From: Crambe crambe
Lineage: Eukaryota; Porifera; Demospongiae; Poecilosclerida; Crambeidae
Assembly: GCA_963924555.1 (NCBI GenBank)
Contig: OZ004584.1
Span: forward strand, 6,695,001 to 6,759,000
DNA: 64,000 nucleotides
Reading direction: 5' to 3'
Position 1 is the stretch's first letter. Every line of letters begins with the position of its first letter. A program made the translations under genes and the position numbers. Positions 636-59,550 of the stretch are shown piece by piece. The notes beneath the pieces were generated by a model that was not told the DNA's origin, did not search any database, and saw nothing but the letters and a program-made list of their open reading frames with translations.

Positions 636-3600
636 TCAGCTTATTGAGTACTTTGATTTCAAATTATCGGCCACTTTCATTTCACTGATGTTCTCTAGAG
701 CTTCAATGATACCCTCCAGTTTGTTTCCAGGACGTTCAAAGTAAAACTCCAATGTGACTTCAAGGCATGTGACATTGCTTTCATTGTTGGTATAAATTTC
801 ATCTTCAAGGTCTTCATCGATTCCAATTTGTTTTGCAAACTCACTCCATTTGTCAGCGATGGGAATGAGATCTTCAATAACATCTGCAGCAGTTGAAGGC
901 TTTGGTACAATTACTGTAATATAAATAACAATAATGAGCATATGTACATATAGCTAAGTTTTCATAAACATCTGCAAGGTATTCTAAACACCCCCCTCTC
1001 CTCTTTGTAGCTCATAAACAAAGAGTATAGCTACCCCATTTTAATTATTAATAATCATGCAAGACTGCAAGGCTCAACTTGTAGCCTTATTTTCTTTTCT
1101 TCATTGTGGTAGCAATGTATACTTGGCTAGCTACTAGCCATTACTTTTAGCTTGCTTTGTTGGAATCTGTGGTGGCACATCAAGTTTCAACTTTGAAGGA
1201 ACTACATCTGAGTAGACCACTTTTTCTGGTGCTATGATCCCAACAATCGGAGATGAACGCAAGAGGTTTAGTTGAGCATATGTTGCACTCTATAGTATGA
1301 ATCATTGAATCATGCATCACCATTAGTCAATATTGCTAGCTCTACCTCACTGATCAAAGAATCTTTGGTTGTATGACACACTTTTTCATTGCTAGGTGAA
1401 GCATGTGGTACAGGGTCATCGTGGGTATGCACATTCTGCAAAATGAAGTAAAACCATAACTAACAATTCAGTCCCAAAGAGCCACTATGTATGTAGCTAT
1501 AGCTACATAAGCCAAATATTATTAATTGTAATGACAACAAATACATAGCTATATATTTGATGAAAAACACTTTGCTTCAACCTCCAAGTTAGGAACTCTT
1601 TTGGTAGCATAATTTAGTGGATCAGTGGGTAACTGGATGAGGGGAATATGTTGACATCTGCAGTCACTAGCACCTTCTGCTTCATGAACTGGAGTTTGTA
1701 GCTGTGGCAGGGTGGGGGGAGAAGAATGTTATTGATGGCTCACATGTGTTAGTTGAAATCATCCACTCACGGCAATTGGATATACGTACTTTGCCTGTTG
1801 CCATTGATCGAAAATAAGTAATTTGTAAGTAGCTAGTTCACATGCACAAATGCACAGTTGTTTGTATTCACAATCACTAGCTAAATATCAGTAATGAAGG
1901 AGTATGAAAAGCTTTCTTTGTATGTTGAACTTTACATATAGGTACATGTAGCTATATACCTCATTCCCAGTATTTTCAGTGAGTACATCTGAGCTTGGAG
2001 CACTGAGTCCTCTTGGTAAGATATCATCATACACAAGCTCGTCTGAGGTCATACCACTTGATGCCTCCTCTTCAGGTGGATTCTATATAAATTAGCTATA
2101 CCTTTCACCATCTGGTTTTAGTCACAACAGACTCATACCATGAAATCTGAGTATATATTGTCCTGTAAAAAGAACAATACTTTCGTGACTATACATGACT
2201 GAGATTACTTTGTACGTACCTCATGAAATTGTACTTCAAATTCACCTACAGCATAAGGACTTAGTGCATATAATATATGTATAATGATTATAGTTGGCTA
2301 TGTAATTTTACCATTATGTTCTCTTCGTCTCTTTCTGTAGTGGCAGCAGAAACCACAGCAAGATAGGATGATGATTGTGAAGAGCATGCATACTGGTTGA
2401 GTGTAGCTATAGTAAAATGTAATTACAGCCATTCTGATCTTTCTTACCAACAGCTAACGCTGCAATAACTGCTGTAACTTTGAGGTTCAGATGTACTCCA
2501 TTGTCTGTTCACAGACTCAGAATAATGAGTATACGTAGCTAGCTAGCTAGCCATAGGTGCCATGCATGTAAGTAATATCATGGACTGAGACATCACAAAA
2601 AAATGGGGGGTGGGGGGGGGGGAGGGGGAGGGGGAGGGGGAGGGGGGTCATACCTGAAGTTGATGTAATGATTTCAGAAATAATTCTAGTTGGTTCAGGT
2701 TGAGTCATGCTAGTTGGTTCAGGTTGAGTCATATTTTCACATTTTTCAGTTGGGATAATGAAGAGGTGATTGGACACATTCTCATTATCCATATATTCGA
2801 TGTATATGGTATAATTTGTGGATGAAAAAAGACAACCACAGTTGTCACTGTGGAACTCAAATCCAGTGACATTCATGTCATTTAGTGAGCAGCAGCAGCA
2901 ATTTGTTTCATTGTGATGTGCTTTGATATGTACAGTAACTCCTGAGGCCAGTGAGTAGGGAGAGATCTCCTGTGCATGCATTGATCAGAAAATAAAAGGG
3001 TTATAGCTATCTATTATTATTAGCTATGCTCAGTTAATTGTAATTGGGTAAAGGGATAAAAAATTATAGCAACTAGCTATAAGTTGCTTTCAGTTGGCTA
3101 TAGCTACAAAGTAGGACTATTTTTAAATAACATATGGCCTCTGTATAGCTACATACGATTCATTACGTTGCAAAAAAAAGAAAAAAAAAGAACCAATTTC
3201 ATCTGAGTTACAGTTTGCAACAACTGTGACTGCATGTTATTCTAAATTCTCTTCTATAATAATAATATAGCAATACCTTACAATAGGCACACAGTTCCCT
3301 CCCTCCCTCCCTCCCCCCCCCCCCCCCCCCCCCCCCCCAGCAATAGCTACTATACCATCAATAGCTACTTCCAGCTAAATGGAATCAATATACTATTATT
3401 AAACAGCTGATTATTATTGCATGGTTATGTTAATTTTGACATTATATGTACAATGTATTAGAGACGTTGTTTAAAACTTACTGGTAATAGATTTACTTCA
3501 ATATGAGACTTGCAAATCTTGACTGCTGCATTGAGAAGAAAACCTTAATACATGTAACACATACATATAGACATAGCTAATATAAAATACACCAGTGGCT

Positions 3601-4420
3601 CGCATTGGCCTATTATTGCATGCAATGCGCTACCTTGCCCCTTAAAAATAACTTACAAGGAAGAATTGTTGCATTTATGGGTGCACTAGGAGCTCCTAGA
3701 CCAACTACATTCATTGCTGTAACAATGAACTGATACTGATTGAGGTCACTGATAATCATGGAGTACATGTCAGGATTGATATTCATAGTGTACTGATGTG
3801 CATCAGTGCAATGATCAGCAGAATCATTAAGTTGAATAGTTCTTCCCCCTGTGATTTCATATACATCCACACAGAATGTCATGTCTGGGTCAGTGTTAGT
3901 GATATCCAGGGAGAAAGGAGGTTGCCAAGTCAGGGTGATAGACCAGGGGGTACAGTTGATGGAGACCTCTAGGTCTTTAACACTCTCTAGTAATCCTGCA
4001 TGGGATGATCCTATAATAACATGATTTACTAGCTAAATTTGTATACTTTCCTTGTATGTGAAGAGTATGCAGATTACCGAAAGCAGGAGGTTCAGTCAAG
4101 GAGAGAAGACTAACTCTAACACACTGAACTAGTGAGTTATTCAGTGAAGTACTGCAGTCTAGGAATAGCAAAGGAAGTCTTGATGATAAATTTGACCTGG
4201 CTCCTTCAACACTGATAGAGGAGACATTGTTAATTTTCCATTCAAAGCCATAAAGCCCTCTAGGGTTCCCTGGTGGTGTTGGTGCTAAGAGACATCTGAA
4301 TTCAATTGTTTGATTCAGGCCACAGACAACCTCATCACTTGAGAATGAGGTGATTCGTCCTACGAGCTGAATCACTGCAGCTATAATGATATTAAACTTC
4401 TTGTTACTACTTCTTGACAT
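636..4420 (-). CDS. Ig-FN3 receptor with ITIM-like tail and death domain (copy B)
   Basis: Multi-exon type I membrane receptor. Exons read leftward. Signal peptide and Ig domain are at about 4051-4420, starting MSRSSNKKF, with Cys pairs in EVVCGLNQ, RCLLAP and VQCVRV. FN3 is at about 3655-3993 (WQPPFSLDI and NQYQFIVTAMNVVGLGAPS). A Cys-rich third domain lies at about 2655-2970 (CCCCSLND), with a repeated TQPEPT stalk. The membrane segment is at about 2325-2420 (VCMLFTIIILSCCGFCCHY, then RKRRR). Cytoplasmic exons lie at about 1955-2085, 1600-1700, 1350-1440 and 1137-1290. They contain LVYDDI, ATYAQL and VVYSDV; the last two tyrosines are 22 codons apart. The last exon, 636 to about 914, codes a death-domain-like fold (LIPIADKWSEFAKQIGI, ending KVADNLKSKY). 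Such tails recruit SH2 phosphatases in vertebrates and death domains bind other death domains; coupling here is inferred. Exon edges are approximate. No break seen. Confidence 0.75.
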
Positions 4421-10256: not shown

Positions 10257-13200
10257 ATGGCGAAGCACAAGATGAAGAAAACGTTTTGCGTTATGATATA
10301 CATGTATTTGCTATTAATCTGTTTTACTGAAGGAGATTCAGAAGTTATTGGTGGTCTAAATGAAATGGTTCTACTCAACTGTAGTTTAGACCCAGATCCA
10401 GTAACTGGGTTAGTCATTCAATGGAAAATCAACAATTTACTCTCAGATACCCTCGAAGGAGTTGTGACAGAAAATAGATTACTCTATATAAACTGTTCAG
10501 AAATGTATAACAACTCTAGAGTTCAATGTGAGAGAGTGAATATTCTTGATTCAAGTCAACATTTTCTGGGTGATGTGTATAACCTTCAGATACAAGGAAA
10601 GTTGATGTAGCTAGTATGCTGATGTTTATTTTAATAATAATTATTATAGGATTGCTTGATGAAGTGAGAGAAGTGAATGTTTCCATCAACTGTTCCTCCA
10701 TCACCCTGACTTGGCAGCCTCCCTTCTCCCTGGATCTCCCTAACACTGACCCAGACATGACATTCTGTGTGGAAGTGTACAATGTATCGGAGGGAGAGAG
10801 GACTCCACTTCACCACCTTGGACGATGCTCCATCGTGACTCCTCACTACATAATACCTACCAACAACTCTGGACTGATGCTTCATTATCAGTTCATAGTC
10901 ACAGCAGTGAATGTAGTAGGTCGAGGGGCTCCCAGTAATTCAACTGAAATAACATATAATTATGGTAATGTCTATCAGATTCATATATTCTTTATGTCAT
11001 CATGCAAAATACATAGGAATATGGCTTCATGATGCAAGATGGATAAAGCTGAATCTTGAATTGCTGCTGCTGAATATATCTTTGGTACACATGCAGCTAT
11101 ATAGTTGTTTTATTTTATTTTATTTTTTCGTATAGGTAACATCAGTATGCATTCTAGAACTGACTGTCTACTTTGATTGTCACGATATCGATAGTGACAC
11201 AGATTGCAGCTGCCCAGTACAGGCAACCCCTGAGTTGAATCAACTACAATACCTCATTTTGAATAACAAGAGTAGCTGTAGTAGATGTCTCGATGCATCT
11301 GTAAATTGCACAGTTCATGTGGAAACTGATGATGGAGCTTTATCTAATAGTCTTACTGTGATTCATTTCCCAATAGAAAGCAATAATGAATCAACCTATT
11401 TGGTGATATTGCAATCAAGTTAGCCACACTGAGTTAAAGTTTTAAAAAATCTGTTCAGCATGATTGTTTTGTTATTATAGACTCTACTACTAGTACCCCT
11501 TCAAATGCAGATGCAACACTTACAACACCAATAGGTATCTTGGAGCTATTATAATATAGCTATAATGTATTATCTTCTACATTATTATCCTTCTTCCAGT
11601 ATCGAGCATCACAGTGTTTATTCTGCTACTATCCAGTACATCATTATGTTTCTCCTTTTGGTTGCAATACAAGAGGAAAAGGAAGGTATAACTATGGCTT
11701 TTTTTTATCTCAGCCAAGACACAGTGCCAGGATGAATGTCATGTACAGTTAGTACATGGTTACATATGTGGTACGTCTTCAAGTTTCACACGTATGCACT
11801 ATCATCACAAAAATTAATTGCATAGCTTTGTATAGCTATTATACTTTCTAGGAGTCTAAACGTCCAGAAATGGCTTTCAGATGCCTGTGACTTCAGGATT
11901 ATAAGTTGAACTGTGCAGAACCATCATAGTGAAAGTGAAGTTTAGAACATAGCCAAACAAAACTTACTTTTAGCTGACCACCTATAGCTTGCCTGACTCT
12001 ATGATCTTTTATCTGAAACCAGAGAGTAAGCTATGAATAGCAAAAGAATATGAAATACCGGTCAAATCGTGCTAACTCCCTCGTAGTAATGAATTGTGGC
12101 ATTTCTCTAGCGTGCCGGCCTTCAATAATTATTGTTGTAAGAAAATGAGTACAGTAGTCCCAGTCAAGAACATGCACTTGGAAGCAAGACTATGGACTGT
12201 CTAAAGGTGACTCACAGGCAACCTGTGACTGATTTTTGTAGTTATTTCAGGTTTTTTACAGTGATAGTTAATACCAAAATTGAAATGAATGTTGTGCACT
12301 CCTATAACAGAGCTCTGGATTTCAAGCCAGACTCCATGATCTACCACTTGCACCATCAGCTACTGAGATAGACACACATCAGAATAGTGCTTATGCTGTA
12401 ATCAAAAATGATGAGGTATGTGGCTAGCTATTAGCTATAATTATTATAATAGGTCTGTGCACCTCTAGCCTGACCATGCCTATGAGGAAGTTAAGGAGAT
12501 CACTCTTACAACTCCAACTGAAATAACCACACCCAATGATGTATTTATGGAGGAGAACACAACATCCAAAAAACAAGGTTGGCTACTCTTTAGCTAATTG
12601 AGTTAATTTTGGTGGGAGTTTTATTTGGCGTTTGTAGCTTTTGGCGGACATTATTATTGGCGGCGGCGTGCATTATTGCACACTCGTGCACTGTTCCCTC
12701 TCCTGATAGTTTGCTTGATCCTCTTCCCTTCACAATCTATCCTTTAACTGAGCTTCCGTCAAGGAAACACTCCCTTTCCTCCTTCTTCAAGAACTTTCGA
12801 AGAGCCATCACGATCGCAAAACAGCTGGAAATGAACTAGCTAGCTAATCAAGTAGTCTTGATCTCGAGCACGCAACTCATTACTCATTGCACGCGCACAA
12901 GATACACTTGAGCCCCACCCCCGGGCCCGGCCTCCCATAGCTATATATAGATATTAGCGGACATTATTATTGATGGTTCCAAGACAGACTGTCAAACCGT
13001 CAAATTTAATACATCGCCAAATTTAACTCATATACAGTAATATGCTAGTTATTTGGCATTCTAACTTTTTGATTTTTACAGAAGGAAGTGCATCAATTTC
13101 TGTTGTTAACCTGTTGAATGATCTTTCGCCAATTGCTTGTAAGTGGAGGGAGTTTGCCACTAAATTAGGAATTGTTGCAGAAAATATTCCTAAATTCACC

Positions 13201-13353
13201 AAGGATGACACTAATGAAGCATGCTTGGAAGCCACAGTTGAATTGTTTTTCACCATTAACTCTCATAAATTGGCTGATATTACTGATGCCTTGAAAAACA
13301 TGGAAGAATATGAAGTGGCTAACTATTTATCAAGAAAATATTCATGCAACTAA
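10257..13353 (+). CDS. Ig-FN3 receptor with ITIM-like tail and death domain (copy D)
   Basis: Best plus-strand copy. Start at 10257 or the in-frame ATG at 10272, which gives the signal peptide MKKTFCVMIYMYLLLICF. The Ig exon runs to about 10597 (ECSEMYNN-type core, VQCERVNI, YNLQIQG). FN3 at about 10650-10967 begins LLDEVREVNVSINCSS. The third extracellular exon at about 11145-11410 has a Cys-rich CSCPVQATPELNQLQYLIL start. The membrane exon at about 11600-11690 reads ITVFILLLSSTSLCFSFW followed by KRKRK. Tail exons at about 12310-12416 and 12467-12577 carry SAYAVI, a strict ITIM match, and HAYEEV. The death-domain exon 13081-13353 reads LLNDLSPIACKWREFATKLG and ends VANYLSRKYSCN. The intron before it carries a small inverted-repeat element. 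Function as an inhibitory or death-signalling receptor is inferred from domains only. No break seen. Confidence 0.78.
12598..13031. mobile_element. Short TIR element inside the last intron of receptor copy D
   Basis: The left end GAGTTAATTTTGGTGGGAG and the inverted right end GAGTTAAATTTGGCGATG are similar over about 30 bp, with TTTGGCGG-type words inside both ends. Length is about 430 bp. No target duplication is clear. An open frame of 76 codons inside it (12609-12839) is not supported as a gene. Confidence 0.35.
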
Positions 13354-15109: not shown

Positions 15110-16993
15110 TTAGGTAGTTATGTACTTCTTAGACAGAGTATTTGCCAATTCATACTCCTCTATATAACCTAGAGCATTGAAAGGAGCTCTTCTCTTGAAG
15201 AAGTACTCCAAGGTTTCTTGCAAACATGCCTCATTGGTTTCGTTGTTGGTGTATATCTCATCTTCAAGATCCTCATCAATTCCTATTCTCAGTGCAAAAT
15301 CAGCTCCACTTTCCAACAATAGAGTACAAATCATGAAACACATTCTCAGCAGTTGGAGGTATTTGGGGGATGGTCATTTCTATGATGAATCAAACAATCC
15401 ATTAGGGCTCGTATAGCTAAATATGTATGCACTATAATATGCAGTTACACTAAGAAGTTCACCATACATGCCTGCAGTAATAAGATTCATGGTTGTATTT
15501 ACCTGCTGGTTTATGTTTTGTTTGTGTCTTTTCATCCATAACAGGTTTTACTTTCGATGGAATAATGTCAGAATACACAACATCATGTACCATGACCACA
15601 CCACCACTTGTTGACTTGGACACTTCAACTTGGGAATAAATAACCTGTAATGATATTAGCTATAATGGCTGCCAGTTGAATAATGGTATATAACTACATA
15701 TTATGACATACCCCTTTTTTGACTTCGGCAGTAGCAGTATCAATATGAAGGGCAACACCCGATGTAGTTCCCCTTCTTATTTTCTTATCAGTATTGGGAT
15801 CACCTTCACATAAATCTGAAGGTATTGATTCTCCTACAAGCTGAAGAGACAATTAATAATTATTATGCGATATAGTTATCATGCATGCATTCTTTACTTG
15901 TTGACTCTTTGTATGGGGGTCGACTGGTTTCAGTAAAGAATGTGCTGACACTGGAGAATTTGAAACAGCAACTTCTTGTGAATGATGCTGCATAATGAAA
16001 ATTTAGACTTTGATGACAGCTACATACGTAACTAGCTATTTACTTCACTGCCATTGTCTTGTCTGATTGCTGGACTTGAATCAGGATGAGCAGGATCCGA
16101 TAAAGAATATGTAGGCTCAAGAGGGATCGAATAACTAACTTCATTGGATGAGTTCTTTATAGAGTTGATGTGTGGGCATATAGCTACTGTAGCTTTTGTA
16201 TAAGGACTTACAATATGATAGGATCTATGTCTCACTTCTGTATATAAGTTGGCATTAGTGTTCTAAAATCAATACATAATTAGCATAATTTCAAGGTCTT
16301 GTAGTAATACATACCCTTATTTTCATCTTCACACGACAATAAAAACAGTAACAACAGCCAAAGAGATGTAGCAGTAAAACTAATACCGAAGCTGAAAGAA
16401 AAAATATTAGTCATATCATAACTAATGATCATTCACCTACCTACTCCAATAGATACTAAAATAATTATTCTTGAATTTGAAGAGGTAGTATTGACAATCC
16501 CTATAGCTAAAAACAGTAAGAGAGCATATATGTAATAATGCTAACACATTGCCTCACTTTTATTGCTTGTTTGTGTATCCTCATTTGTGAAAAACATCAC
16601 AGTAAGACTATTGGATAAAGCTCCGTCATCAGTTTCCACATGAACTGTGCAATTTACAGATGCATCGAGACATCTACTACAGCTACTCTTGTTATTCAAA
16701 ATGAGGTATTGTAGTTGATTCAACTCAGGGGTTGCCTGTACTGGGCAGCTGCAATCTGTGTCATTATCGATATCGTAACAATCAAAGTGGACAGTCAGTT
16801 CTAGAATGCAGATGTTAAAATAAAATAAAACAACTATATAGCTGCATGTGTACCAAAGATATATTCAGCAGCAGCAATTCAAGATTCAGCTTTATCCATC
16901 TTGCATCATGAAGCCATATGCCTATGTATTTTCCATGATGACATAAAGAATATATGAATATGATAGACATACCATAATTATATGTTATTTCAG
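15110..16993 (-). pseudogene. Beheaded receptor: tail, membrane and death-domain exons (copy E)
   Basis: Only the C-terminal half of a receptor remains. A fragment of FN3 end is at 16976-16993, then the third extracellular exon at about 16560-16800 (NQLQYLILNNKSSCSRC, close to copy D). Membrane and juxtamembrane exons lie at about 16320-16500 and tail exons at about 16030-16260 and 15880-15990. A tail exon at about 15500-15650 holds two strict ITIM matches, VIYSQV and VVYSDI. The death-domain exon is at 15110-15350. That last exon keeps GIDEDLEDEIYTNNETNEAC but is out of frame upstream of it by one base near 15305 and lacks about five residues after RRAPF. The N-terminal half is missing because a 5.4-kb transposon begins at 16994 inside the FN3 exon; the matching other half is not on its far side. 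Likely dead. Confidence 0.7.
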
Positions 16994-19900
16994 TTAGTCC
17001 AGCAGATAGTAGAAAAAATTGTGCACTTTATGGTAAAAGCATGAAATTTGGTACACACATTAGTGACCCCGAAACATGCGAATTTGAAACCAGTGCCATG
17101 GCTGATTTCGCTTTGGGGGCGTGGCAATGACTTTCCATATATGGGCAACATGTTTTTATGGAATCAGAGGATTAACAGACCTATATATCTATAATGCAAG
17201 TGTTTGTGGTGCCAAATTGATCATAATAAGCATCATTGCCATCAAGGAAAGTGCTAGACAAATATTAAAAAAATCATAGGAAAGATATGCAAAAGTATAC
17301 ACAATGAATGTAGATCTAACAAGTACCAGCACACTTGCACAAAGCTGTACAGGAGAGGGCAGCTTTCTTACACTTGCAGTTAGTACGGCAACCCTTGGTA
17401 CAGCCACAGCATATAAGTTCTCTGCATACTTGGCTTGCCTCAGGAAGTTCGCTCCAAAAAACCTCCCATGTTCCACTAGAAGAACTTTTCCATTCCCATT
17501 CATTCGGTTGTGGAAGCTCCATCATTGGGTTTAACGATTGACTCCAGCAATATCCAGCTTGATAAACAGCTCTCTTCACATGTTGAAGAAGACTACCTTG
17601 TGTTGGTGGGATACGATAGATGTCTCTGCCTTTTCGTGCGAACAAATCGACCCTTGTCTCATTGACACAAGATTTTGAACTTGTTTTATCGTAGAGAAGG
17701 ACAATAAATCTTTCCAAAACTTTCATCGCTGCATGTACTTCCAGAACCCCTGGCCTTCCCATCAGTGCACTAAGGGTCACTGTCAGCTCTGGAAACACAT
17801 CCCACGTGTCCCATGCTGACTTCTTTCCCCTGCTGGAAAAACTTGAAACAGTATCGCAGCCTGTAAGGGCATGGAACATTGGGAGTGCTAAACATTTCTG
17901 ATGACCAAGTGCTGAACATATATGGTGCACAGGAATCAGTCGATAGCTCTTGCCAGTACCAAAAGCAACCCAGAGAGAATTCAGAGATGGTGTAAGGCAA
18001 GCAAACACATACACAGCTAAGACAACAACATCACTGTCCACAGTACGTATAATAACGGAATTGTACTGTTTTGCTGCATCTGCAACGTGGACCATCATCC
18101 TCGTATCAGCTTCCTCGTGTGAGCAGGGAGAAAGGCCGTCCTTATTTCTTTCCTGTCGACAGACAACATCTTCAAGCAGTGTGCTGATCACTTGCTTGTC
18201 TGTTTCCACAGTAATAGCTTCCCTACTTAGGAAGGCAAATAGCCCTTTCTTGTTGTCATCAAGCCTCAAAAATTCCCCCCAATTTTTTGGTATGGAATTA
18301 TTAGCTGCTACTCTTCGACGAACTCCTTTCCCCCTCTTCTCTCTTGTTTGCTGCTTCAATGACCCTGCCTTGTAGATGTCCCACACTATATCCACTCTCT
18401 GGACTTTATCTAGCTGCATTAAAATGTAAGGAAGGAAAACATCCTGAGCATAATCTTTGAATTTTTTAGATGATCCAGGTTTCAACATGTTGACGATAGC
18501 TGGTCCATCCAATATAACCACATCAGCAACAACCAGACTAGTATCCTCTTCAACCAATACAACTGTGTCTTCGAGGCAGTGGACAATATCAGACTTTGTG
18601 CCTAGTCTGAGTTTTCCTCTGTCTGACAATGATGGAGGACAGGACTGATTCTCGTAAGAAAAAAATTCGTCCAAATTGCCATCACGAACTTGGCATGCAA
18701 CATACAGTCTTGAGAATAGATTTCTGTCACTTTTTATCTCTGCCACAATTGCCTGTGCCTTTGTCTTTTGCCTTTTTGTCGGTGTACTAAAAAGGCACAG
18801 CAAATTCTTCTTGATGACATCATCCAGTTGCTTCGACCTGTCTACGAGGCATTCCTTCACAAAATCTTTGTACTGCTTCAGACCCAATTCCTCAATTTTG
18901 TTCACTATATCAATGACTGCTTCACTGGTGATGTCTTTTGTATCAAGAACCATTAGGTCACTGCTAGATTCTAAGAATGGATTTCCATACTCACCAAATG
19001 CAGCTTTCAAAGCTTTCACATCCTGAAGAAATGATTTTTGTACTCCTGGCCGCTGTTCATGATGGCGCATGTCAACCATATCCTTGGAATGATGGACTGA
19101 TGCTTCAAAGTCGTTGATTAGCCTTGCCATCTCAGGCCCACTGACCATCCATCTTCGAAGAGCTGCTGGGGATTCAGTAAGACCAACCGCACCACCATCA
19201 TCCTTCACTATACAATTATTTTGTTCATGCGCTTGGTCGATTGCCATGTTCGAAAATGAATGCTCTGTCTTCTGCACAGTAAAATGACCCTTCACAAATT
19301 CTATATAGAGACTAGGATGCAAGTGTGATAAGGTCACCATATCACGGAGATGAACTGAAATCCATCGTGAATAGTTGAAGTGGTCTAAGGAGAAAAACCA
19401 GGGCACGAGCCTTGTAAGTGACTGGACATAGAGGTCAAAGTTACCAGTCCGAATGGAACGCACAAAAATCAATACACTTAGTTCCAACTGCAAGACTGTG
19501 AACCAAAACTTAAACATTGGCTGACTGTTCTGCTTGCACCAATCTTCCAGGCTATTGGGCTCAATGCCTGCTTCCGTTGAGGTTATATACTCTTGGTAAG
19601 CCTCTTCTAATTCTTGATATAAGGCAGAAGCTGTGACCTGATGAGCACGCCGTGTGCGTGTGATATGTGCTACTTTCAAAAAGCATCTGCAGTGCCAGCA
19701 GTTGCAACTCCTGCCTGGACCAATGCTGATGTCCATCCGCTGTCTTTGAGAAGATCTCCTAGTACTTTCATAGCAGCTAACTCGATATGAAGTCCTCCAA
19801 ACATAACCAAGAATTTATCTTCTCCGTAAACCTGTGACCACTTCCATTGGATCTTCTTTGCTATTGCAAACAGTGGCTGGTCAACTGCAACAACGGGTGT

Positions 19901-22425: not shown

Positions 22426-22995
22426 TATAGAGTCTATATCAATAACTGCGTGCCAGAATGGTTCACTCTATAGAGTCTATAATAATAACTGCATGCCATA
22501 ATGGCTCTCTATATAGAGTCTATAACTGACTGCCAGAATGGCTCACTCTATAGAGTCTATATTAATAATTGCGTGCCAGAATGGCTCTCTATATAGAGTC
22601 TGTATCAATAACTGCATGCCAGAATGGCTCACTCTATAGAGTCTATAATAATAAATGCGTGCCAAAATGGCTCTTTATATAGAGTCTATATTAATAACTG
22701 CATCCCAGAATGTCTCTCTATAGAGTCTATATTAATAACTGCATGCCAGAATGGCTCGCTATAGCTATAGAGTCTATATTAATAACTGCATGCCAGAATG
22801 GCTCACTATAATAGAGTCAATAATAATAACTGCATGCCAGAATGGTTCTCTATAGAGTCTATATTAATAACTGCATGCCAGAATGGCTCACTCTATAGAG
22901 TCTAGCTATAATAATAAATGCGTGCCAGAATGGCTCACTATATATATAGTCTATATTAATAACTTCATCCCAGAATGTCTCACACTATAGAGTCT
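22426..22995. repeat. Satellite array 1, ~43-bp unit
   Basis: About a dozen units built around GCATGCCAGAATGGCTC and the palindrome CTCTATAGAG, with variants (TGCGTGCC, TGCATCCC). The array abuts the right end of the transposon. The order of variant units from about 22495 on repeats that seen at about 28683-29080 in array 2. Confidence 0.9.
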
Positions 22996-23034
22996 ATCAG
23001 AGAGTGCGCTAGCACTCTCTAAGTATGGATGGCA
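22996..23034. repeat. Terminal hairpin shared with other repeats
   Basis: AGAGAGTGCGCTAGCACTCTCT forms a perfect-looking hairpin. In inverse orientation the same hairpin, preceded by CATCCCTACAT-like sequence, ends the repeats at 35795-36473 and the sequence at 63779-63818. Confidence 0.6.
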
Positions 23035-34100: not shown

Positions 34101-35738
34101 AGAGGATGAGGAAAAGCTATGAACCATGTTGTTTATACAGAATCCATGCATGTCTTCAAGTGACTCCAGCGATGCTGAAAGTAACAAAAGAGATGATGGG
34201 TGTGGTCTTTTGTCAGCTGACGAGAGCAGTGATGTAGATAGTACATCAGTTGAAAGTGATGATTATCAATGCATTATTTGTGGGAATTCAGGTGGCAGAT
34301 GGATTGTGATGCCTGTGATCAATACTATCGCTTGAAATGTGTTTAACTTAGGTTGATGTTATATATGACATATGACTGGATTGAAAGGACTAGATATCCT
34401 TTCTGACTACTGAAGATCACATTACATTGACTATATCAATAATAATTGCTCTGTATTATCAATAATATTGTTTGTTCAATAAATGGTGTTGGTGTACAAT
34501 ATTTAGCACTCAAACTGTGTGTACAAAAATTAGTTTCAATGTCCAATAATTGGCCCAAATATTTTTTCTTGTAGTTTATCAAGAAAAGGATGGGTTTAAG
34601 TAAATGGAGTCAAAAAATGAGTAAACTCTGTTTGATACTGTCTTCAATACCACTCCATAAACCTTAAGTGTCCAAAATATGGCCCCTTTACCTTACATGC
34701 GCATGCGTATTATAGAAAAGATAGCTTCCTAATTGAATTAGTCGAGTGCTGTGCTCCATAGTGTCTCCTTTTTCATCGACTCTTTCGAGGATCAATGAGT
34801 AGAAAAGATCGTAGTTCGTAGAATTTGGAGTGGATTTGTCCAGAAATCATAGCTGTAGCTTGAGTGGTTCGAGAGATATGGTTGTCTAAGAAGAATAATA
34901 ATAAGAATAATAGAGAAGAAGAAGAATATAAGGGAAAAAGCATTTCGTGAAATGAAAAAAAGATGTAGGGATGACCACTGCTCAAAAAAGTAAGGAAACA
35001 AGAAGGATGGAAATGGGATCAATCTTTGTTCTGTATATCCAGCCAACAATCCCTACATATACACACATTACTACACTATAATCTGAAGTTACCTGACGTA
35101 TATGTAGGGATTGTTGGCTGGATATACAGAACAAAGATTGATCCCATTTCCATCCTTCTTGTTTCCTTACTTTTTTGAGCAGTGGTCATCCCTACATCTT
35201 TTTTTCATTTCACGAAATGCTTTTTCCCTTACTTGTTCCTGGTCTTTTTTCCTCTCTTTTATGGTTTTAGCTATGATTAGAGTTCATTCTTCTATGTGTA
35301 TGCAGGGACAAGTTCTCCAATAGCATACCAGCCCAATCATTTATCGAGTCAAGGTGTTGTGTTGTTGAGCCATACTTGGAGGTCGAAAATGCTGAAATAG
35401 AGTCTACCGTGGTGAATCTAAATCCCCGAATCGATACAGTAGTCTATCATCAGCTAGAGCTAGCTAGCTAGCTAGCTAGAGACAGCTGAGTAATATTATG
35501 ATTTCGAATAATTGGATATTCAAATACATGCGCATGCGTATTATAGAAAAGATGGCTTCCTAATTGAATTAGTCGAGTGCTGTGCTCCATAGTGTCTCCT
35601 TTTTCATCGACTCTTTCGAGGATCAACGAGTAGAAAAGATCGTAGTTCGTAGAATTTAGAGTGGATTTGTCCAGAAATCATAGCTGTAGCTTGAGTGGTT
35701 CGAGAGATATGGTTGTCTAAGAAGAATAATAATAAGAA

Positions 35739-35773
<35 letters not shown>

Positions 35774-38700: not shown

Positions 38701-38952
38701 AGAGCTGCAATGTGTGTCATTTTCATACTCTATGTGAGCTGTCAGCTCTTTGAAGCAGCTTGTTGATGACTGGATTATCTCAGCTGAAATCTGTGACAGT
38801 CAATATAGCTAGAAATCTTAGATTGGCTAAATTTTAGCTCCCCATATATGTAAGTAGTCTGGTGTCGCCAGCCCAGCTTTCTTCTCTTTTTTTTTTTTTG
38901 GGGACGGGGAAGAAAAGTGCTAGGGTTAGGGCTAGCCCACTTTTCTTCCCCG

Positions 38953-38983
<31 letters not shown>

Positions 38984-39991
38984 GAAGAAAAGCTGCATGG
39001 GTGACGCCAGACTAACATGTAAGATGAGTGGTCCAGCCATAATCACATTTTTAAGGTTAGCTATCTGAGTTTATTGAAACTCAAATGGTTGTTTTTACAC
39101 ACCATAAGAGGAACACATGATAATTTCAGTTTGTGAATGGTAACCAATTTATACTAGTTACATAACATACGGCCATCATCACTCCTGAATCAGATAAGTG
39201 TACATCTGGATCATGAAGTCCAATGAAATGATCTACATCGATAGTTGTGATTACTATGAGATGAGTTTAATAATTACGAACTAACCATCATAAAAAATTA
39301 CATCTATTGGATCACTGGGAGCTCCTCGACCAACTACATTCACTGCTGTGATTATGAACTGATACTCTAACACTGATCCAAGGACTGAGTTGTTGGTAGG
39401 TAACATGTAGTGAGGAGCTATGATGGAGCATTGTCCAAGATGGTGAAGTGGAATCTTCTCTCCCTCAGATACATTGTACACCTCCACACAGAATGTCATG
39501 TCTGGGTCAGTGTTAGTGATATCCAGGGAGAAGGGAGGTTGCCAAGTCAGGGTGATGGAGGAACAGTTGATGGAAACATTCACATCTTTCACTTCATCAA
39601 GCAGTCCTATAAGTATCAAAAGTTTAATAATGACTAAGTGATGAGATAATAATTGCTACTTTCCTTGTATCTGGACAAAGAACACCTCACCATAGAGTAC
39701 TGTGGGATCACTCAAATTAAAGATATTATGTCTTTCACATCGGACTACTGAGTTCTGAAATGTTTCAGTACAGTTCAAATGCAGCATTTCATTTTCAAGC
39801 GTAGTAGTAATTCCAGATTCACCATTATTAATACCTGATGAGATATTATTGACTGTCCACATGATTGAATAATCACCTATAGGTTTAAACTGACAATTGA
39901 ATTCAGCCACTTGATGTAGGCCACAAATCACTTGTGATGACATGGAACTTTCTGTAGCTAACAATAATAATATCACTACCTTTATTATCAT
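31132..39991 (-). CDS. Ig-FN3 receptor with three strict ITIM motifs and death domain (copy F)
   Basis: Exons leftward. Signal peptide MIIKVVILLLLATESS and Ig are at about 39667-39991. FN3 is at 39290-39608 (LLDEVKDVNVSINCSS). A linker exon lies near 39170-39243. The third extracellular exon at about 38389-38785 ends in a Thr/Pro stalk of TLPPPT units. The membrane segment is split over exons near 38030-38090 and 37880-37955 (VVAIAVPVGIAVVMSIVI, then LYHYLHHKKK). Tail exons lie near 37720-37805, 37565-37660, 37210-37330 and 36790-36945, with IAYSII, ATYSLL, VKYAQL and VIYSDI. The death-domain exon is at 31132-31413 (LFHDLYSIAGKWSKFALKIG). The last intron, about 5.4 kb, is filled with mobile elements, so joining of the last exon is the weak point of the model. 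If it fails, the receptor would lack its death domain. Coding exons look unbroken. Confidence 0.68.
31570..31706. mobile_element. Short palindromic element, GGGGCAATT repeats
   Basis: Inverted ends share GAGGGTGGGGCAATTCCG. About 137 bp, no coding capacity, in the last intron of copy F. Confidence 0.65.
32285..32540. mobile_element. 256-bp element with CACAGC termini
   Basis: Starts CACAGCGAAAAATCTACAAC and ends with the inverse, with TA on both sides as a 2-bp duplication. The sister tail at about 33370 lacks it. The terminal word CACAGC and the following A-run match the 6.6-kb CACTA-like element at 40474-47067. Confidence 0.75.
33430..34693 (+). mobile_element. Internally deleted pogo-type transposon
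   Basis: Inverted ends start AGGTAAGGGG / AGGTAAAGGGG, with TA at 33428-33429 and 34694-34695; the two sister units give the uninterrupted sequence. Inside, about 33925-34010 codes LQAALTAILNDKLSLRRA followed by STFGVPKE, the pipsqueak-type helix-turn-helix found at the start of pogo transposases. About 34126-34335 codes an acidic stretch and DDYQCIICGNSGG, the Cys-rich end seen in some of them. The DDE catalytic core between is gone, so it is non-autonomous. Confidence 0.75.
35795..36473. repeat. Three direct tandem copies of a ~220-bp repeat ending in a hairpin
   Basis: Copies at about 35793-36014, 36013-36234 and 36253-36473 start AGCGATTTACCTGCTTGCC and end with the hairpin AGAGAGTGCTACCGCACTCTCT then GAT. 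Copies are nearly identical. A short purine-rich leader, AGAGAAGAAGAAGAATAT, precedes copies 1 and 3. The same terminal hairpin occurs near 22996 and 63790. Head-to-tail copies with a terminal stem-loop would fit a non-autonomous rolling-circle element, but no further hallmark is proven. Confidence 0.8.
36500..36609. mobile_element. Palindromic mini-element with CACTG termini (copy 2)
   Basis: Second, slightly shorter copy of the element at 14701-14818, sharing GTGTACTGCACAC and the inverted ends. Confidence 0.65.
38855..39014. mobile_element. 160-bp TIR element in an intron of copy F
   Basis: Ends start TAGTCTGGTGTCGCCAG and its inverse, flanked by ATATGTAAG (38846-38854) and ACATGTAAG (39015-39023). 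The paralogous intron at about 55258-55268 lacks it. The middle is a T/G and C/A homopolymer palindrome with a TAGGGTTAGGGCTAG word. A similar single end is seen at about 60413-60450. Confidence 0.7.
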
Positions 39992-50450: not shown

Positions 50451-52927
50451 ATAGCCAATACGTACCTCAATGGCACTCCACATCACCCCAGATGGGGGGT
50501 CCCTACAGCGTCTATTCAGGCCAAGCCTCTTTAATCTCCTTTTCAGCCAACTTAAACTACTTTGAACAAAGTAACTTAAAATTCCTGCTTATAGAATTAA
50601 ACTAGCTCTGGATTTGGACCTTCTTGATAGACCATGAACCAGCCGAAGCCGATGCACTATCCTTTGATAACTCCTACCGGAGTAAAAATATTCGGTCAGT
50701 AGCTCATCAACACCTGCAAAGGTAAAAGAAATCAGTATAGGCTCAGCCAGTAAAGCTGTACTCACCACTCGCACCTGCACCACGCATAGCTTGACCTTGA
50801 CACGTGGTACTGGGTAAAGGGTCTCCGGATCTGTCATGCATGCCGCGCCGGAACCAACCACGGGCGCGGCCCGGCGGTATGCGGGGGATACCGCGGGCGG
50901 GTACCGCTGGCGGTATGCGGGGGGTACCGCTGGCGGTATTGTGGATACCGCGGGCGGCAGTAAATATTTGCGAAGCGGTCGCGGGTGACCCTTCTCGGCC
51001 ACCATAAGTTTTACTGAAGGAGATTCAGAAGTTATTTGTGGCCTAAATGAAATGGTTGTACTCAACTGTAGTTCAGACCCAGATCTAGTAAATGGGTTAG
51101 TCATTCAATGGAAAAACAGCAACTCATCCTCGACTCAGATACCCTCGAAGGAGTTATAACAGAAAATAGAGTACTTTAGCTATATAAACTGTTCAGAAAT
51201 GTTTAACAACTCTAGAGTTCAATGTGAGAGAGTGAATTTTTTTGATTCAAGTCAACATTTTCTGGGTGATGTATATAACCTTCAGATACAAGGAAAGTTA
51301 TAAATGTAGCTAATATACTGGTTTATTTTAATGATATTATAGGATTGCTTGATGAAGTGAGAGAAGTGGATATTTCCATCAACTGTTCCTCCATCACCCT
51401 GACTTGGCAGCCTCCCTTCTCCCTGGATCTCCCTAACACTGACCCAGACATGACATTCTGCGTGGAAGCATACAATGTGTCGGAGGGAGAGAGGACTCCA
51501 CTTCACCACCTTGGACGATGCTCCATTGTGATTCCTCACTACACAATACCCACCAACAACTCTGGACTGATGCTTCACTATCAGTTCATAGTCACAGCAG
51601 TGAATGTAGTAGGTCGAGGGGTTCCTAGTAATTCAACTGAAATAACATATGGTATGTCTCAGATTCATACATTCTTTATGTCATCATGCAAAATACATAG
51701 GCATATGGCTTCATGATGCAAGATGGATAAAGCTAAATCTTGAATCGTGGCTGCTGAATATATCAATACCTCATTTTGAATAACAAGAGTAACTGTGGTA
51801 GATGTCTCGATGCATCTGTAAATTGCACAGTTCATGTGGAAACTGATGATGGAGCTTTATCCAATAGTCTTACTGTGATGTTTTTCACAAATGAGGATGA
51901 TTCTACTGATATTATGATGACACAAACAAGTGAGGCAATGTGTTAACGTTATTAGCTACATATATGCTCTCTTACTGTATTTAGCTATAGGGATTGTCAA
52001 TACTAACTCTTCAAATTCAATAGTAATAATTTCAGTATCTATTGGAGTAGGTAGGTGAATGATCATTAGTTATGATGTGACTAATTTTTTTCTTTCAGCT
52101 TCAGTATTAGTTTTACTGCTACCTCTTTTCGGCTGTTGTTACTGTTTTTGTTGTGTGAAGATGAAAATAAGGGTATGTATACTACATGACCTTGAAATTA
52201 TGCTAATTATGTATGAACACTAATTCCAACTTATATACAGAAGTGAGACATAGATCCTATCATATTGTAAGTCCTTGTACAAAAGCTACAGTAGCTATAA
52301 TTATGCCCACATATCAACTCTATAAAGAACTCATCCAATGAAGTTAGTTATTCAATCCCTCCTGAGCCTACATATTCTTTATCGGATCCTGTTCATCCTG
52401 ATTCAAGTCCAGCAATCAGACAAGACAATGGCAGTGAAGTAAATAGCTAGTTACGTATGTAGATGTCATCAAAGTCTAAATTTTCATTATGCAGCATCAT
52501 TCACAAGAAGTTGCTGTTTCAAATACTTTTCCGTATTCTTTACTGAAACCAGTTGACCCCCATACAGAGTCAACAAGTAACCATATTATGTTGGTATCAG
52601 TCAGTTGTGTGAAGTCCAAGGAACATTCAAACTCAGCTCGTTGATGTTATCACTGACACACCCTGCACTGCTTCATAACTAAGAAGATAGATCACAACAA
52701 ATCTAGTATGTCTCATCTTTCTTGTGATCAGCTCAGAAGAGAATGTAAACTAACTCAATCAACCAGCTCCATGGCCAAGAGATTAGCTACATCTAGATAT
52801 TAGCCATACTGTATTGACAGTGAAATTAGTGGTCCCCTGCAGTCATAGACCCCCAGACTGTGCATGAGAATGGATAGCAGATTAGCACTGGAGTCATGCT
52901 AGCTGTTATGGGAATCTTTTTTCATAT

Positions 52928-53900: not shown

Positions 53901-53959
53901 TATTCATAATTCATAAATAATGTGCAATCAAAAACTGAAGAAGTACGGCTGCATACATG

Positions 53960-56900
53960 TACGTATAAGATAAATCTTGTATCTTTCCCTTGCTATCCAG
54001 TGGAGGGTGCACTGGTTTTAGCAATGAATATGTAGCATCAATTGCTGTGGGAAAATCTTGTGAGTGGTGCTGAAAATTGACAAAAATAACCATAATATGA
54101 TGATATTAAAATAATTATCATCAAAATACTTAGTTACTTCGATGGTTGAATATGGGGAAGAAGTAGGTCCCACTAGAGAGTATTGTGTTGGCTCACTCAG
54201 TGTAGGATTACTGCACAAATTCTACAAAAGGAAAATAAAAAATCAATCATCAAACAAAAAACAACTTTGTAAATACCGCTTTTTTCATTTCTTTCCTGTG
54301 ATGTGAGTAGTAGTAAAGTATGAATGCCAACATCACTATCACAATGCTCATTATAACAGCTCTAAAAATGTGGAAAAAGAACATCTTCATCCATGCTAGC
54401 TAGCTAGCTAGCTAATAGCTGTAAACCATACCTATTCCAACAGGCACTGCAATTGCTACCACATCAAGAGAGTTGGTATACTTAGTACTGCTTGTTCCTA
54501 CCACTAAAAGTAAAAAGAATGTGTCATTAATATCATTATTATTACCTGCAGGAATAAACCTGCATGAAGTTAACATGTAAAAAATACAGCACAGTAATAT
54601 TTATGTTCAGTTAACTCAATGCTGTGCTACTGGCTAATTGCCCAGATAAGTTTTTGACTTTGAGAAGTTGATAAGATCAATTTTCAGTGTGAAGCGTACA
54701 TAATGGGATCACATGATCATAACATCTGACAGCTTGGTATAATAGTCTGATGTGTATAGCAAACTAGACATCATGCAGCCATTGCAATGCAAATTGTTTA
54801 TTATCACTATCTAATAGTCTTACACTTTCACTAAAAGCTATATAGTCAAGTCCCTACTCACTTTCACTTGTGTATGTGTTCATTGTCATTATAGTTGGGG
54901 GTGGGAGTGTAGTTGGGGGCGGGAATGTAGTTGGGGTTGGGAGATACACCACTGTAAAATTGCTTGAAATGTTTTCGTATTTCGTTTCAACATGAAGAAC
55001 ATAGTTTACAAATATGTATGAAATGTTGGGACAATTGCCTGAACCCATGGTAGGATCCTCATCATTGAGAATGAGATATTCAATCCTGTTCAATGCATCA
55101 GTGAGATGTGCAGGGGAGCTGCAATGTGTGTCATCTTCATACTCTATGTGAGCTGTCAGCTCTTTGAAGCAGCTTGTTGATGACTGGATTATCTCAGCTG
55201 AAATCTGTGACAGTCAATGTAGCTAGCTAGAAATCTTAGATTGGCTAGATTTTAGCTCCCCATAAGATGAGTGGTCCAGCCATTATCACGGGTTAGCTAT
55301 CTGAGTTTATTGAAACTCAAATGGTTGTTTTTACACACATAAGAGGAACACATGATAATTTCAGTTTGTGAATGGTAACCAATTTATACTAGCTATTGTA
55401 CATAACATACAGCCATCATCACTCCTGAATCAGATAAGTGTACATCTGGATCATGAAGTCCAATGAAATGATCTACATGGATAGTTGTGATTACTATGAG
55501 ATGAGTTTAATAGTTACAAACTAACCATCATAAAACATTACATCTATTGGATAACTGGAGCACCTCATTCACGGCTGTGATTATGAACTGGTACTCCAGC
55601 ACTGATCCAAGGACTGAGTTGTTGGTAGGTAATGTGTGAAGAGCTACAATGCATGGGCATAAGAAGCAGGGGGGCTGGGGGGGCTTCAGCCCCCCCCCCC
55701 CCCCCACTCAAAATGCACATAGGCATTAGTATATGCAAAACAGATGCTGCATGTCAACTAAGTATTAATAACACCTACTAGCTAAGTATTAACATCACAG
55801 AATGGTTAATTAAGTATTAGTAACACCTAACTCAGCAGTTAGCTTGGCTCTACTATGGCACAGAGGAGAATTCATCGCTCCAATTCAGTTCTCAGGTAAC
55901 TATCGATGTAAGATCGCATATGTACATTATAATAAAAATTATTGTATTTGCAAGTGATGATGCTGGTCCATCTTCAGAGACCTCAATCACAAGCACTGAC
56001 GCCACTGCATAGGCGGTGGAACAGGTAAGGTCAGTCAGGCCCAGGCCTGATCAATATTTTGGGAAAAACAAGATTAATTATTAAGTGGCTATCAATCAAT
56101 AATAAAATATTTTGGGATTAATTATTAAGTGGCTATCAATCAATAACTTAAATACATATGATGCTCAAGTATAGCAAACTGTAGAACTTCTCAATTTTGG
56201 GCTTGACCAATCGAATCTTGCTTCCAACACCTCTGCACTGTTGAGCCAGTTGATGGTACATTGGTATCCAAAAATGGGTGTGGTTAAGGAAAGTGGGCGT
56301 GGTCAGCTAAAAATTTTCCCACGCACAAGCGCATGGATCAGCACACATACATCAGCCCCCCCACCAGAAAACATCTTCTTATGCCCCTGCAATGGAGCAT
56401 TGTCCAAGGTGGTGAAGTGGAGTCCTCTCTCCCTCAGATACATTGTACACCTCCACACAGAATGTCATGTCTGGGTCAGTGTTAGTGATGTCCAGGGAGA
56501 AGGGAGGTTGCCAAGTCAGGGTGATGGAGAAGCAGTTAATGGAGAAATTCACATCTTTGACTTCATCTAGCAGTCCTATAGCTAAGTATCAAAAGTTTAA
56601 TGATGACTAAGTAATGAGTTGCTACTTTCCTTGTATCTGGACAAAGAACACTTCACCATAAAGTGTGGGAGCACTAAAATTAACAAAATTATATATTCCA
56701 CATTGAACTACCGAGTTATAAAATGTTTCAAAACAGATCAGATGTAGCATTCGATTTTCAAGTGTTGTGGTAATTCCAGATTTGCCATCATTAATGCCTG
56801 ATGAGACGTTAACTGTCCATGTAATTGTGTAATCACCTATAGGTTTAAACTGACAATTGAATTCAGCCACTTGATGTAGCTAGACCACAAATCACTTGTG

Positions 56901-56965
56901 ATGACACGGAATTTTCTGTAGCTAACAATAATAATATCACTACCTTTATTATCATAGTGAATTAG
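53960..56965 (-). pseudogene. Receptor, recent duplicate of copy F, broken (copy H)
   Basis: Near-identical to copy F over introns and exons. Ig is at about 56632-56955, where a 4-base TAGC insertion near 56880 shifts the frame right after VICGL. FN3 at about 55530-56575 is split by a 738-bp element. The linker exon is near 55430-55500. The third extracellular exon at about 54854-55200 has a shorter Thr/Pro stalk than copy F. Membrane exons lie near 54435-54500 and 54295-54365, and tail exons near 54135-54225 and 53975-54075 (TQYSLV, ATYSLL). No death-domain exon follows; instead an inverted-age FN3/Ig relic begins. Dead. Confidence 0.7.
55652..56389. mobile_element. 738-bp TIR element in the FN3 exon of copy H
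   Basis: Ends CATGGGCATAAGAAG and, inverted, CAGGGGCATAAGAAG, flanked by CAATG (55647-55651, 56390-56394). The intact FN3 exon of copy F gives the pre-insertion order. Contains a long C/G palindrome. No transposase. Confidence 0.78.
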
Positions 56966-57149
56966 CTACTGTAGGTAATTTACTTTTTACCGAATAGTGA
57001 AGAGCAGTTCTTTAATAGACTCTAGGCAATCTATTTTTGTTCACGCCGCGTGCAACAATTAATTCCAAATAGAGAGCATAGATAATAGCTAGCTGCTCAC
57101 GCGCATGCGTAGTTGACATCGACTTTCTCTGGATCCTGTTTCCAAGTAA

Positions 57150-57600: not shown

Positions 57601-58159
57601 AATAAAAACCATTCCCAAAATAGCTAGCTATGTACAAAAACAACCACGAATATGCTTATTCAATCCCCAAGTCAACACTCTTTCAGTATTGTAACAATAA
57701 CAAAAACATGTTTCACCAATAGATTTTGGAAAATAGTTAGCTCCAAGTCACATATCACTGGGTCAGGTGGATCATGGGACTATTATGATCATTCAGGTTC
57801 CCAGAAAATAGATAACAGTTATTGGAAAGCCATGCATGCATGCATAACCAACTCTGCTTGTTTTGTATTTCATGATTTAGTTTTCTATATCAAATAATCA
57901 TCCCAAATAGCTAGCTATTGCTAGATAATAATAGCTACAGCAAACATTGATGTTGACTGAGTGCTGTTTGTGTAGCTCTTTCTCCCATCCCTAAAGCAAA
58001 TCATGGCAGCTACATACATAGTTATCTAAGGATATTTAAAGTGCAGTGAAAGGCATCCACATTCAATTTCATTTTTCCACACAACCATTAATTTTTTCAC
58101 TAATTTGATTACAAACAAAATTATTTACAGTATAGCTAACAGTCAGCTTTTGTTGTTAA

Positions 58160-59550
58160 TCACATGAAAGATATTTTCTTGATAAATAATTAGCCACTTC
58201 ATATTCTTCCATGTTTTTCAAGGCATCAGTGATATCATGAGAGTTAATAGTGAAAAATAATTTGACTGTGGCTTCCAAGCACGCTTCATTAGTGTCATCT
58301 TTGGAGAATTTAGGAATATTATCTGCAACAATTCCTAATTTAGTGGCGAACTCCCTCTACTTGCGAGCAATTGGTGAAAGATCGTTCAACAGGTTAACAA
58401 CAGAAATTCTTGCACTTTTTTTTATCAGTTTCTATAAAATCAATAGCTATAGTTACCTATAGCTTCAAGCAGCATAGCATTACAGCCAACCTGGTTTTAG
58501 TTGAATAATTGATGTTGTGTTCTCCTCCAATGGAATCATGAATACATCATTGGGTGTGGTTATTTCAATTGGTGTTGTTGAAAGAGTGATCTCCCCAATG
58601 TCTTCATAGGCATGGTCAGGCTAGAGCTGTAGGCTGCAACTCCCTAGCTTGTAGCTACCTCATCATCTTTGATGACAGCATATGCACTATTCTGATGTGT
58701 ATTTATCTCAGTAGCTGATGGTGCAGGTGGTAGATCATGCAGACTGGCTGGAAATTCAGTAGAGCTCTGTTATAGGAGTATCAGCAACAACAGCAACAAC
58801 AATTAACAAACAAATGGTAAAATACTGCATAGCTGAAAAAGATTCAACCCATTAACTACTTTTCCTTTCCTCTTATAATGGAACCAAAGGCAGAAACATA
58901 ATGATGTGCTTGAATAACCACTGTGATGCTCAATACTGGAACATTCATTATTAACTACAATGATACTCAAAGTGTAGCTCCAACTATAGTATGTATCATA
59001 CCTATCATTGTTGTAATTATAGCATCTGTATTAGAAGGAATAGCTAGCTACTATAAGAGTCTATAATAATAATCATGTTAAAAAATTTTATAGTGACTAA
59101 CTTGTTTGTGAGATCACCATATGAGTACGAGTAGATCTATAACTGTTTTCAATTGGGAAATGTGTCACAATAAGACAGTTCCACCAATCAGTTTCCATAT
59201 AAATAATCCATGGAATTGTTTACAGATGCATCAAGACATCTGCTACAGTTATAGATACTCTCTCCATTCAAAATGTTGCTGATTCAACTCAGGGGTTACT
59301 TGTACTTGGCAGCTGCAGTTTGTGTTAGTAATCAAGGTGGATCGACAGTTACCTCTTGGAAGCACATAATATAGATGTCAGTTGTATAATAAGTTCAAAA
59401 TCAATAGAATATACAGAACACAAGCACCATTAGCTATTTACTATTCAGCTCCAGTTCAGAATTAATCCAACTTGCTCCAAACAGTTGTATAGGAACAGAT
59501 AATGGAAATATTCACATCTTTGACTTCATCAAGCAGTCCTATAAGTATCA
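58160..59550 (-). pseudogene. Broken receptor related to copy D (copy I)
   Basis: Death-domain exon at about 58160-58425 is very close to copy D but has a stop in place of the Trp of KWREFA (near 58358) and a short deletion. Tail exons at about 58500-58625 and 58660-58765 keep HAYEDI and the strict ITIM SAYAVI. A membrane exon lies near 58860-58950. The third extracellular exon near 59120-59350 is frame-broken, and 59480-59540 is a scrap of FN3 start. No Ig exon. Dead, but shows that the tail motifs were conserved before decay. Confidence 0.68.

Follow-up and report, generated by a model that had tools for sequence, protein, structure and literature searches.

The stretch of DNA analyzed here, hereafter the window, comprises 64,000 nucleotides of the sponge Crambe crambe (assembly GCA_963924555.1 of 143 Mb, contig OZ004584.1, here C6, at C6:6695001-6759000). 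It contains copies of a putative receptor gene family in which an Ig-like exon and an fn3 exon are followed by a second ectodomain, a membrane helix, a tail with tyrosine motifs resembling immunoreceptor tyrosine-based inhibitory motifs (ITIMs) and a last exon with a predicted death domain. Judged from the genomic sequence, the window is part of one large tandem array of predicted single-pass receptors. The sponge origin proposed in an earlier sequence-only reading of the window agrees with contig C119 of the same assembly, where the COX1 gene reads TGA as tryptophan and is accompanied by an ATP-synthase c gene. A mitochondrial atp9 gene is a mark of sponges among animals, and this mitochondrial contig supports an animal with that mark.

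Models of genes A, C and E were built by hand from genomic DNA, using splice sites and reading frames (Table 1). In each of them the frame stays open from the ATG to the stop codon that follows the death exon, all junctions are in phase, and the exons follow the same order from Ig to death exon. The hydrophobic start shares the exon of the Ig-like domain, a stalk precedes the membrane helix (hydropathy peaks of 2.93, 2.09 and 2.95 in A, C and E), the tail is spread over several phase-0 exons, and a phase-1 intron separates the death exon from it. The second ectodomain of C and E had no Pfam match. Splice phases, the order common to the array and the constraint described below support the prediction of one gene from the Ig exon to the death exon.

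The sequence-only reading had named five copies (A, C, D, E and H) with tyrosine motifs between a membrane exon and a death-like last exon. This arrangement stood for A, C and E, whose predicted exons join in phase. Five full working copies could not be upheld, as D has no Ig exon and only the end of its fn3 exon, H is degenerate, and the death exon of E is damaged: relative to a close paralogue, 9 bases are deleted and 4 inserted, which puts the last helix out of frame. The last intron of E measures 5.4 kb and contains repeats; copies of a repeated element, up to 99% alike, were seen in and around it (31743-36473). Gene B, absent from the earlier list, has an intact death exon; its model is provisional at one short tail exon and at the ATG, and its tail is incomplete. 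No adjoining death exon of the array type was found for copies F and G.

Table 1. Predicted receptor genes, gene copies and their parts in the window (positions counted from the first nucleotide of the window; aa, amino acids)
Feature	Position	Strand	Content
Gene A	636..4420	-	13 exons, 670 aa; Ig-like, fn3, second ectodomain, transmembrane helix, tyrosine tail, predicted death domain
A exon 1	4051..4420	-	Hydrophobic start and Ig-like domain; ends in CAAG/GAAAGT, candidate GA 5' splice site
A exon 2	3657..3995	-	fn3
A exons 5-6	2312..2504 (2504-2448 + 2392-2312)	-	Transmembrane helix interrupted by an intron and followed by basic RKRRR
A tail exon	1960..2082	-	Strict ITIM LVYDDI (2037-2020); phase 0-0
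A last tail exon	1145..1289	-	ATYAQL and strict ITIM VVYSDV (1220-1203); tyrosine spacing 22; phase-1 GT donor
A death-domain exon	636..913	-	
Gene B	4789 to about 7880	-	Ig-like, fn3, second ectodomain, transmembrane helix, tail (TAYAVV, PSYAEI, PIYLNI), death exon 5066 to 4789
Gene C	10257..13353	+	8 exons, 513 aa; tail with SAYAVI (12386-12403) and HAYEEV; death exon 13082-13353
Copy D, broken	15110..16995	-	No Ig exon, end of fn3 only; death exon frameshifted; VIYSQV (15644-15627) and VVYSDI (15581-15564) retained
Gene E	31132..39991	-	11 exons, 671 aa; tail with THYSLV, IAYSII (37736-37719), ATYSVL, VKYAQL (36941-36924) and VIYSDI (36875-36858); death exon 31415-31132, frameshifted at its end
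Copy F, partial	51008..52580	+	Relative of C and D; Ig exon split over two frames
Copy G	53963..56981	-	Relative of E; fn3 shortened
Copy H, broken	58160..59550	-	fn3 truncated, second-ectodomain exon broken, stop in death exon; SAYAVI (58688-58671) and HAYEDI exons retained

All nine tyrosine motifs named in the sequence-only reading were located (Table 1). Behind the transmembrane segment, strict ITIMs ([SIVL]xYxx[IVL]) number two in A, one in C and three in E. When the tails modelled for A, B, C and E are counted without their first eight residues, with that of B incomplete, the strict pattern occurs at 6 of 16 tyrosines and the looser YxxI/L/V at 13 of 16. Shuffled tails gave means of 0.9 and 3.1, and the observed values were reached in 2 and 0 of 20,000 shuffles, respectively. 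In the six-frame translation of the window (segments of at least 30 aa), 194 of 2564 tyrosines fit the strict pattern. An excess of ITIM-like motifs over chance is thus supported by these sequences, as support and not as replication, because the four copies are related by ancestry.

The last tail exon carries a pair of tyrosines spaced by 20-22 residues in the five copies measured. The immunoreceptor tyrosine-based activation motif (ITAM) follows the pattern YxxI/L x(6-12) YxxI/L, and the pair is too wide for it because the ITAM spacer is shorter. In the first pair of E (YSLV-x9-YSII), position +3 of the first motif is V. An alignment of six last tail exons of different subtypes, drawn from 15 copies whose search pattern demanded both tyrosines, gave seven invariant columns, five of them inside the two motifs. 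A search with the motifs masked, which reached close relatives alone (79-97% identity to the queries), recovered the second tyrosine of this exon in each of 15 places (9+3+3), its first tyrosine in the 3 of 3 places covered and the SAYAVI-type tyrosine in 8 of 8. The LVYDDI-type tyrosine was kept in 3 of 9 places, and several of the others show SVYDDI, shifted by one residue.

These tyrosines might instead serve mainly as YxxPhi sorting signals or as docks for Grb2 and Src-family proteins, with the death domain signalling alone and no phosphatase switch. The preponderance of YxxI/L/V over strict ITIMs goes in that direction, as do the Grb2-like motifs of B (YENT, YLNI) and the Src-like motifs of C (HAYEEV) and A (YDDI). 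On the other hand, the strict motifs well exceed their shuffled mean, and A or S at +1, together with the spacing of the last pair, would suit the tandem SH2 domains of SHP-2. We regard sorting or docking as the main function as unlikely, though it deserves serious attention.

Three lines of evidence, the profile, the predicted fold and the constraint, favor a death domain in the last exon, in agreement with the death-like fold proposed earlier. Matches to Pfam Death (PF00531) had E-values of 2.2e-4 in A, 5.2e-4 in C and 4e-4 in the death exon of B. Among five paralogue death exons, two scored above the cut-off of 22.6 bits (28.1 and 27.9) and three below (21.2, 16.1 and 13.5), and the structure predicted for the exon shows a death fold. 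A profile of the death exons retrieved 13 proteins of 56-118 aa from the protein collection, and the eight inspected are exons of the array family; full-length E had no match there at E<=0.001. Against PDB sequences, the best match of this profile was a calcium-channel subunit (E = 0.18), the p75NTR death domain reaching 0.49. For the outer part, Pfam fn3 (PF00041) matched A at 6.1e-5 and C at 7.8e-4, one of two distant paralogue Ig exons passes C2-set_2, and the best AlphaFold2 model of the Ig exon scored 76.9, the listed Foldseek matches being nearly all Ig, Fab or T-cell receptor chains.

Median ratios of nonsynonymous to synonymous substitution rates (dN/dS; stop-free exons, pairs with dS of 0.1-1.5) were 0.21 for the death exon (21 distinct exons, 92 pairs), 0.43 for fn3 (30 exons, 369 pairs) and 0.52 for Ig (30 exons, 312 pairs). 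This gradient agrees with a signalling end under constraint and an outer end that changes. A tail exon with a tyrosine motif and a phase-1 donor, together with an acceptor, lies ahead of 23 of the 27 death exons examined. The four misses are D, H, L037 and the exon at 7101653, whose match sat in a neighbour; the stretches L013, L015 and L021, nested in others, and L001-L008, which contain other Death genes, were left out of this count. Tail and death exons could nevertheless end up mostly in separate mature transcripts, the tail stopping after its last exon and the death exon being an alternative or a relic. Such an arrangement would account for the stops that A and E have three codons past the donor of their last tail exon, for two units without death exon that end in a stop-bearing tail exon, and for the damage to the death exon in 3 of the 5 named copies. 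We consider it quite improbable, given that the stop-free death exons are the most constrained part of the family and that a tail followed by a death exon is seen repeatedly in the array.

The junction between the Ig and fn3 exons reads CAAG/GAAA in 33 of 33 pairs in which the Ig exon has a readable CAAGG end and is followed by an fn3 exon (including that at 7088152); five partial Ig matches ahead of fn3 exons, without the CAAGG end, were excluded. The predicted intron begins with GA, not GT, usually as GAAAGT or GAAAGC, and Ig exons of the window end with this site at 4051, 7509, 10596 and 39664. The GT four bases downstream (GAAA/GT) was rejected as a donor: it would leave phase 2 and put the fn3 exon out of frame, and of the 33 pairs six have GC in its place and one has TT. 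The other introns of A, C and E are GT-AG, by construction of the models. Ig exons of another type, three in number, are followed by GT, and two of these three precede a second Ig exon. Predicted joins at six sites in five more distant stretches (L040-L044) read CAAG/GT, and because of these distant relatives the GA site looks derived. A U1 variant reading GA is unsupported: each of the three U1 genes found has the canonical pairing stretch, ACTTACCTG. GA-AG introns are described, in passages of PMC7072748, from Eurytemora affinis and Oikopleura dioica, with a conserved upstream AG and downstream A, and also from human FGFR genes.

In several copies, the unspliced frame of the Ig exon stops just after QIQGK. 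In one conceivable scheme, an ITIM-type chassis with an optional last death exon is combined with a family-wide GA-AG intron that serves as a splicing switch, giving either a membrane-bound receptor or a secreted form with a single Ig domain. We hold this scheme to be rather doubtful. If true, it would mean an ITIM-like system in an early-branching animal, coupled directly to death-domain signalling. Gene finders restricted to GT-AG introns would split these genes at the Ig exon, which may partly explain why the family is apparently undescribed in the literature searched.

A genome search with the death exon of A gave 61 matches, 54 of them on C6 between 6.58 and 7.34 Mb, which defines an array of 0.76 Mb. 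The same span holds at least 106 fn3 matches, fragments included, among the best 150 of 202 candidates, hence a ratio of fn3 to death matches of about 2:1; these are matches and not modelled genes. In a genome search with Pfam Death, the C6 array was not among the best 150 of 965 candidates; further dense runs of Pfam Death matches were seen at C16:1.25-1.47 Mb and C18:5.25-5.59 Mb. A same-strand fn3 match lies within 12 kb upstream of 48 of the 54 death matches, with no death match between, and random placement gave a mean of 25 and a maximum of 35 in 2000 trials. Along the two longest stretches examined, fn3 and then Ig were found upstream, in order, for 14 of 17 death exons (one stop-split exon counted once; D and H are among the three misses). 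The pair of genes A and B recurs at C6:7105697-7116070 (L031, L032), with a death exon translation identical to that of A. Other death exons of the array also occur with identical translations, which suggests recent segmental duplication.

In two units without a death exon, whose fn3 exons lie at 7090428 and 7087753, a membrane helix is followed by putative tail segments, the final one ending in a stop. The motifs of these segments include SAYTVI, SLYTVI and SAYTFI, then PVYAEI and TFYSNV. Repeated tail segments of the SAY[TA] type, ending in a stop and without a death exon, were observed at C6:7084454-7090742 (L029, L030). More distant Ig-fn3 units (L040 on C6 at 7.75 Mb, L041 and L042 on C13) have tyrosine motifs behind the membrane helix, and a death exon of the array type was not found in these three. 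The tail is thus not tied to the death domain, as fn3 matches are about twice as many as death matches and two units have the tail without it. The death domain appears to be an added, optional exon, because the units lacking it end in tyrosine-motif tails; we infer, without a tree, that it was added to a tyrosine-tail receptor.

A candidate partner of these tails lies at C18:6540942-6539084, where two SH2 exons and a protein tyrosine phosphatase (PTP) exon follow in order. The second SH2 piece matched PTPN11 at 2.5e-55, and the label SHP-2-like is given because of this match and the domain order. The predicted product could read the tail motifs. Matches to the PTP domain are also many and clustered on C12, C9 and C13, likely a large expansion.

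The explanation we favor, with somewhat better than even confidence as a whole, is an array of receptors with an SH2-docking tail, an optional death exon and tuning by a phosphatase. A varied ligand would be bound by the Ig-like domain, the fn3-like domain and a third, cysteine-containing domain. Provided that the genes are expressed, clustering by the ligand would lead to phosphorylation by a Src-type kinase of the tail, in which the small phase-0 exons would supply ITIM-like and other SH2-docking tyrosines. Through its tandem SH2 domains, the SHP-2-like phosphatase may engage the paired tyrosines just ahead of the death domain; it would then tune the assembly of the death domain with its presumed recruits, or feed back on the receptor as in UNC5. 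The phase-1 exon would add the C-terminal death domain in many units, and units lacking it would be ordinary ITIM-type receptors. A phosphatase-or-kinase switch on a death-domain signal, as the sequence-only reading had suggested, may be envisaged. If true, one diversified receptor family of the sponge would link tyrosine motifs of the phosphatase type to death-domain signalling, with implications for the origin of inhibitory and death receptors and for sponge self/non-self recognition. The domain combination could show how the two types of signalling can be connected.

Several points weigh against this explanation. The gene structures are predictions from genomic sequence, and the frame of A, C and E is kept solely by the cut before GA. 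In the ectodomain, the fn3 scores (23.6, 20.0 and 22.3 bits; E-values of 6e-5 to 8e-4) are just below the Pfam cut-off of 25, the Ig exons of A, C, E and a C10 copy had no Pfam match, and four of the five AlphaFold2 models of the Ig exon failed (31-42). For Pfam Death, the window exons fall slightly short of the cut-off (21.7 in A, 20.5 in C, 20.9 in B), the E protein had no match at E<=1, and Foldseek E-values of the death model were 0.1 or worse. No strict ITIM was found among the modelled tail exons of B, and YxxI/L/V doubles as an endocytosis signal. The conservation of the tyrosines is weakly tested, because one search presupposed them in its pattern and the one with masked motifs found close relatives only. 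The count of 23 in 27 is likewise a weak test: phase-1 GT sites often arise by chance, and among the 23 the case at 6684881 implies an intron of 27 nt. Finally, the PTP piece of the SHP-2-like gene is closer to LAR-type receptors (2.3e-41) than to PTPN11 (5.1e-34).

UNC5 receptors have a C-terminal death domain and a UPA domain. These netrin receptors combine Ig and death domains with TSP1 and ZU5, and phosphorylated UNC5C recruits SHP2 and is then dephosphorylated by it, according to passages of PMC6080411. The sponge receptors resemble them in the Ig ectodomain, the membrane helix and the predicted death domain, with SHP2 recruitment through tyrosine phosphorylation on the side of UNC5. They differ in tails made of arrays of short exons, in the fn3 domain outside and in the large tandem array, and the SHP2 of UNC5C acts on the receptor itself (PMC6080411, same passages). 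No Pfam match to TSP1, ZU5 or UPA was found in A, C and E at E<=1, which places them outside the UNC5 family. The premise that no known family has both ITIMs and a death domain must be revised in view of UNC5; with this and the count of five copies corrected, the earlier observation is partly confirmed and largely right.

Vertebrate ITIM receptors share an Ig ectodomain, a transmembrane segment and cytoplasmic ITIMs with the sponge units, as in SIRP and PECAM1; to our knowledge, none has a death domain. The likeness of the tails is one of motif, and homology is not claimed. LILRB receptors have the same layout in the passages of PMC11999971 that describe them. According to passages of PMC6208332, sponges have Ig-TIR receptors, and a gene of Dysidea avara combines Ig domains with a CARD domain. 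As in the array, a signalling domain, TIR or death-fold, is linked to an Ig ectodomain in these sponge proteins; TIR or CARD takes the place of the death domain there, and those passages mention no tyrosine-motif tail. A description of a sponge ITIM or Ig-death receptor was not found in the open PMC literature searched, and the union of these features in a large sponge Ig-fn3 array, with an optional death exon and a GA intron, is apparently undescribed. Fas and other TNF receptors also have a death domain behind the transmembrane segment, with a cysteine-rich ectodomain. In Fas, however, SHP-1/2 bind a YxxL motif that lies within the death domain.

The ligand may also be sought in cell-cell recognition or allorecognition rather than in microbial defence, a possibility compatible with the receptor array and phosphatase tuning favored above, from which it differs in the ligand. 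The large tandem array, with the Ig domain as its fastest-changing part, would suit such a role. Botryllus FcoR, which has sushi domains, and Hydractinia candidate allorecognition genes carry ITIM and hemITAM tail motifs, and ITIM-bearing Ig receptors occur in the Botryllus allorecognition locus, according to passages of PMC12065747. Like the sponge array, these are invertebrate Ig-superfamily receptors of a large locus with tyrosine-motif tails; the sponge units differ by their fn3 domain and, often, a death exon, and the term death domain appears nowhere in PMC12065747. The sequences analyzed do not separate recognition of self from that of microbes, and we give a recognition role a chance clearly short of even, somewhat above that of the sorting function discussed for the tails.

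Between D and E, two long open reading frames of 832 and 167 aa (17316-19814 and 19676-20179, minus strand) possibly belong to a mobile element. At positions 22426-22997 and 28156-29972 of the window, a related 43-base unit forms two tandem arrays.

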